A stretch of DNA of 58,348 nt from Gemmatimonadota bacterium (GTDB lineage: Bacteria > Gemmatimonadota > Gemmatimonadetes > Gemmatimonadales > GWC2-71-9), in NCBI GenBank assembly GCA_003222155.1, contig QHUU01000064.1, positions 1-58,348 on the forward strand, in the 5' to 3' direction. This document shows positions 58,262-58,348 of the stretch, one piece after another. Under the pieces are notes generated by a model that was not told where the DNA came from, did not search any database, and saw only the letters and a program-made list of their open reading frames with translations. Each line of letters opens with the position of its first letter. The first letter of the stretch is position 1. A program made the translations under genes and the position numbers.

Positions 58262-58312
58262 GTTTTAGCGACTTGTTTAACGTGGCTGCAATAGGCCGCA
58301 AATCACCACGGA
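58262..58312 (-). promoter_or_regulatory. SAM-II riboswitch in the leader of the methyltransferase/reductase gene
   Basis: Read on the minus strand, the leader holds the SAM-II landmarks in order: P1 arm CGTGG (58310-58306), TGATTT (58305-58300), TATTGCA (58293-58287), closing arm CCACG (58285-58281), TTAAACAAG and GCTAAAA (58269-58263), then the start codon eight bases on. A pseudoknot helix is available between GCGGC (58299-58295) and GTCGC (58272-58268) with one G-U. SAM-II binds S-adenosylmethionine and hides the ribosome site, shutting off methionine genes when SAM is plentiful; the gene that follows makes methionine. The region 58313-58348 should hold the promoter, but I see no clear one. 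Confidence 0.85.
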
Positions 58313-58348
58313 ATCCGTTGTCGCTCGAAATCTAGCGCGTCCCACGTA

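Follow-up and report, generated by a model that had tools for sequence, protein, structure and literature searches.

The window analyzed here is a contig of 58,348 bases from a Gemmatimonadales MAG whose closest named proteins come from Gemmatimonadetes soil MAGs (97% identity), in agreement with the Gemmatimonadota-like origin suggested in a preliminary description of this DNA. Near its right end, on the minus strand, a SAM-II aptamer stands directly before a gene for a fused methionine enzyme. In a cmscan of the whole window against all of Rfam, RF00521 (SAM_alpha, SAM-II) matched 58319-58245 on the minus strand with 57.9 bits (E = 2e-10; gathering cutoff, 36 bits), in an alignment covering the full length of the model (positions 1 to 79 of 79). 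No other riboswitch class reached its gathering score in the window, leaving RF00521 as the sole match. A search of the whole genome returned three copies in total, namely, the window copy (E = 2.8e-12) and two further copies above the cutoff (38.3 bits), and no RF00521 match was found in 14 control genomes (0/14). The preliminary description had proposed SAM-II from the motifs TGATTT, ATTGCA, CGTTAAA, and GCTAAA, all of which were found on the minus strand (58305-58300, 58292-58287, 58282-58276, and 58269-58264, respectively). The range given there, 58262-58312, covered the aptamer core and missed the last pseudoknot bases, GCC at 58261-58259. From 58319, the minus strand reads AACGGATTCCGTGGTGATTTGCGGCCTATTGCAGCCACGTTAAACAAGTCGCTAAAACGCCAGGATGACC. 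Upstream of the aptamer, the contig extends for only 29 bases. Many relatives have a TAnnnT hexamer about 23 to 28 bases 5′ of helix P1, and the corresponding TAGATT here (58334-58329, minus strand) is a candidate −10 element that would place the transcript start near 58322. A consensus scan found no full promoter, the −35 region being truncated by the contig end.

The secondary structure was evaluated on 85 aligned SAM-II cores from this genome and its Gemmatimonadota relatives, with pairs counted on a named structure. In this structure, helix P1 joins CGTGGT (58310-58305) to GCCACG (58286-58281) and was paired in 100% of cells. Helix P2, the pseudoknot, joins two 5′ strands within 58297-58288 to 3′ strands within 58269-58259: GGC (58297-58295) pairs with GCC (58261-58259), and TTGC (58291-58288) pairs with GC (58269-58268) and AA (58266-58265) around a bulged U at 58267. 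The outer P2 helix (P2b) of the window copy has only 3 bp. Loop 1 contains TGATTT (58305-58300), a strand that forms a triplex around SAM in the solved SAM-II/SAM-V structures (PMC6061858). Across the 13 pairs of P1 and P2, 99.4% of 1,088 cells were paired, versus 96.3% after shuffling. Changes on both sides occurred in three pairs, with P1 and P2 both represented (30 cells versus 11 expected), and the covariation score was reached by 0 of 500 shuffles; many core pairs are invariant and hence uninformative on covariation either way. The P2 pair 58297/58259 was G-C in 39 sequences, C-G in 26, and A-U in 1. Because this pair switches between G-C and C-G, the H-type pseudoknot drawn in the preliminary description is supported in Gemmatimonadota independently of the alphaproteobacterial seed. 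A chance match was ruled out by the RF00521 score, the empty control genomes, and this covariation. The ligand-site sequences TTT, TTGC, and GCTAAA formed invariant columns of the alignment. Small pseudoknot aptamers can change specificity, and ligand identity is here predicted from sequence, so a variant aptamer for a related ligand such as S-adenosylhomocysteine (SAH) has to be weighed. We regard this as highly improbable, given that the window copy retains the family's SAM-site sequence with a score well above the cutoff, and that the original SAM-II aptamer strongly discriminates against SAH (PMC1273637).

The gene behind the aptamer (58255-56420, minus strand; ATG at 58255-58253) encodes a bifunctional homocysteine S-methyltransferase/methylenetetrahydrofolate reductase (MTHFR) of 611 amino acids. 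It matched the NCBIfam equivalog NF006396 with 726.1 bits (cutoff, 453) and carries PF02574 (residues 16 to 287) and then PF02219 (MTHFR; residues 326 to 588) in one chain, confirming the two-domain YitJ-type enzyme named earlier. By sequence, the best solved chains were 1q7m (5-methyltetrahydrofolate homocysteine methyltransferase) for the first domain and 1v93 (MTHFR) for the second. The window gene was the single PF02219 match in the whole genome and is thus its sole detected MTHFR. MTHFR is the expected source of 5-methyl-THF; SAM control at this locus is predicted to bear on the only detected MTHFR of the genome, plus any direct homocysteine methylation. Cobalamin-dependent MetH was rejected as an alternative methionine synthase of this genome, in which its B12-synthase domain, PF02965, had no match. 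MetE is present (PF01717, 513 bits), and we therefore do not claim the window gene as the sole methionine synthase.

The remaining two SAM-II copies of this genome lie on other contigs. On contig C11, a copy with a terminator (L103:3629-3704, minus strand) precedes a thrC-like gene (L103:2329-3597, minus strand), followed by a small MoaD/ThiS-like gene (about 2344-2070, minus strand). On contig C12, the third copy (L104:8529-8578, minus strand) precedes an operon of thrB and a fused aspartokinase/homoserine dehydrogenase gene. The thrB and MoaD-like genes were assigned by eye from their translations, and aspartokinase/homoserine dehydrogenase and threonine synthase were assigned by NCBIfam. 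Both of these aptamers have TGCTTT in place of the TGATTT seen in nearly all others, a difference at an almost invariant position. The thrC-like gene on C11 is the second such gene, another PALP gene being located in the thrB-thrA region, and the C11 pair could be a sulfur-carrier-dependent enzyme instead of threonine synthase. SAM-II at thrB and thrC prompted the tentative idea that homocysteine may be made from O-phosphohomoserine via the thrC-like/MoaD-like pair. A PF01053 enzyme of this genome scored above the NF005871 (cystathionine gamma-synthase) cutoff, and TIGR01392 (MetX) gave weak matches only.

Across relatives, the region 3′ of the aptamer commonly contains an expression platform of the terminator type. 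A terminator-like hairpin with a U-run was detected within 110 nucleotides 3′ of the aptamer in 63 of 89 relatives, compared with 23% of tails after shuffling and 1 of 85 stretches of coding sequence from these loci. Examples include GCCAGCCCGTTTGGCGACTGCCCGGCCGAACGGGCCTTGCTTTT in L036 and CGCCCGCGGCGTTTGTTGCCCGGGTTTTTT at the thrC copy found in this genome. In the window copy, no terminator-like hairpin with a U-run was found in the 110 nucleotides after the aptamer or anywhere in 58348-57900, an absence that went unremarked in the preliminary description. The junction in the window is GCTAAAACGCC-AGG-ATG, versus GCTAAAACGCCAGCCCG...terminator...ATG in relatives with the same gene. The AGG (58258-58256) provides the only three bases from the pseudoknot to the start codon, too few for a terminator or for a Shine-Dalgarno sequence at normal spacing. 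SAM-II riboswitches are mostly described as transcriptional (PMC6061858), and the window copy might likewise act on transcription, as most relatives appear to do given the prevalence of their hairpins, by Rho-dependent termination or at a termination site within the coding sequence. However, no intrinsic terminator-like site was present in either interval searched, and the segment lost from the window copy is the one that carries the terminator in other copies; we therefore consider a transcriptional mode of action unlikely here.

The short arrangement is common to the window copy and six other MAG copies (L007, L008, L009, L010, L012, and L020), with the ATG located 8 nucleotides after GCTAAA. 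Most of these short forms share one identical junction, GCCAGGATG, which argues against an assembly error. In a tree of the fused protein, short and terminator forms were intermixed, and the well-supported (starred) branches require that the short state changed at least twice; the identical junction favors one deletion combined with transfer, or an error in the tree. The short form at the fused gene may have arisen by repeated deletion or by transfer. At a thrC copy in genome G008 (L115), the aptamer likewise abuts the ATG and, because the gene is different, this short form represents a separate event. On balance, we lean toward the view that, within one genus, SAM-II changed from transcription termination to start-codon occlusion by losing the terminator and ribosome-binding region in a deletion of about 60 to 70 bases, and that this happened more than once: at the fused gene in at least one lineage and separately at thrC in G008. 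Having lost both the Shine-Dalgarno region and the terminator, the aptamer could also be a relic that still folds and regulates no more; indeed, a close relative (L034, 89% protein identity) keeps the fused gene with no SAM-II at gathering score and no aptamer visible upstream. Such decay is difficult to reconcile with the short-form aptamers themselves, which keep all invariant positions, score among the highest (50.7 to 57.9 bits), and recur in seven separate MAGs as well as at thrC in G008, and we judge it quite improbable.

With the terminator lost and the aptamer ending only three bases from the ATG, the most likely effect of the closed pseudoknot is to bar the ribosome from the start codon. 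Under this model of start-codon occlusion, plentiful SAM would bind the aptamer and the H-type pseudoknot would close; the closed pseudoknot, three bases from the ATG, would keep the ribosome off the start codon; and with ribosome loading blocked, less of the fused homocysteine methyltransferase/MTHFR would be made (an OFF response). We infer that the locus probably harbors a true SAM-II riboswitch that, at high SAM, turns down the sole-MTHFR fused gene through occlusion of the start codon. For the window copy, a SAM-dependent block of translation initiation as the regulated step is itself probable. A counterpoint to occlusion is the lack of a good Shine-Dalgarno sequence for the pseudoknot to mask; all that is present is the AGG adjoining the ATG. 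The short P2b (3 bp) likewise counts against it. In addition, pseudoknot-free folding of the leader, which cannot determine its SAM-free state, paired the 5′ strand of P1 with codons 2 to 4 (−20.8 kcal/mol, versus −18.8 kcal/mol with P1 forced), and given this competing fold, an open leader in the absence of SAM cannot be assumed.

Translational SAM-II riboswitches are rare but known: in the metX example the outer P2 helix has 2 bp, a 5-bp form being commonest in the class (PMC6061858). The window copy resembles the crystallized metX element in its short P2 (3 bp versus 2 bp) near a translation start and in the translational control proposed. Unlike metX, it hides no clear Shine-Dalgarno sequence, its pseudoknot abuts the ATG itself, and it appears to be derived from a terminator-bearing form by loss of the terminator. 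With the Agrobacterium metA element (RF00521) it shares sequence, P1, the H-type pseudoknot P2, the predicted control of a methionine gene, and a full-length covariance match; it differs in its phylum, its fused target, and its lack of a terminator. The preliminary description had presented the combination of SAM-II with this enzyme as unusual. The pairing is real, and its novelty is qualified by a precedent in “Candidatus Pelagibacter,” in which a SAM-II/SAM-V tandem precedes the homocysteine methyltransferase gene bhmT (PMC5069961), although that locus has two aptamers rather than one, has no fused MTHFR domain, and belongs to a different phylum. The further statement that Bacillus yitJ, an enzyme of the same two-domain type, is under SAM-I (S-box) control is borne out by the literature (PMC1273637); that RNA is unrelated to SAM-II, and no covariance match to SAM-I (RF00162) was found in the window's genome. 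The pairing of SAM-II with the fused gene is new in the literature searched and not alien to the class.

Among 61 genomes belonging to the family or close to it, 58 carried SAM-II. Phylum-wide, it was detected in 262 of 395 Gemmatimonadota genomes at E ≤ 0.001 (221 of 395 above the cutoff), most commonly before metH, which further tempers the claim of an unusual setting. Judged by these matches, SAM-II is the common SAM switch of Gemmatimonadota. The 2005 discovery paper reported SAM-II mainly from Alphaproteobacteria, with few examples in other proteobacteria and Bacteroides (PMC1273637), and our literature search found no papers linking the SAM-II riboswitch with Gemmatimonadetes or a SAM riboswitch with Gemmatimonas. 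By clustering and NCBIfam, downstream genes in relatives comprised, besides metH, the fused gene, thrC, thrB-thrA, metF, metY, cysH, panB, aspartokinase/homoserine dehydrogenase, homoserine dehydrogenase, and an ATP-grasp-like protein that matched no NCBIfam model. The panB gene (ketopantoate hydroxymethyltransferase; L107, L137, L140, and L155, the first by NF001452/TIGR00222) is not obviously part of a SAM pathway; its enzyme consumes 5,10-methylene-THF. The ATP-grasp-like family, so named by eye, begins IAIYHEHPDWFRPLFAELDRRG (L133, L139, L154, L160, and L199), and the one member scanned (L133) had no NCBIfam match at E ≤ 1e-30; the family would be an unassigned component of the SAM regulon. 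At two fused-gene loci (L051 and L059), the aptamer lies near the open reading frame and no ATG, GTG, or TTG occurs at the homologous start position; CTG (CTGCCC and CTGCCG) stands where relatives show ATG or GTG, and a CTG start is possible.

SAM-I (RF00162) was present in 42 of 200 Gemmatimonadota genomes scanned. Both classes exceeded their cutoffs in eight genomes of genus g80 (G077, G080, G086, G088, G092, G104, G174, and G186), which contradicts the statement of a 2007 survey that SAM-I and SAM-II occur together in no species. In G104 (L180, L181, and L182), SAM-II precedes metH, and SAM-I precedes genes for a MetX-like acyltransferase, aspartokinase, and cystathionine gamma-synthase (metB-like), all on long contigs; in G080, the riboswitch loci are L191 and L192. 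Because the coexistence recurs across the whole genus, it looks native.

Taken together, these results widen the range of SAM-II, a sensor known mainly from Alphaproteobacteria, which appears to be a main SAM sensor of an entire environmental phylum, a role absent from the papers found. Several methionine genes of Gemmatimonadota share this sensor, the fused gene among them, and the YitJ-type enzyme would be governed by SAM-II in one phylum and by SAM-I in another. Most worth following are the change of expression platform and the regulon that spans the phylum. Loci with the same aptamer and the same gene, with and without a terminator, constitute natural matched pairs that would allow a direct test of a change from transcriptional to translational control.
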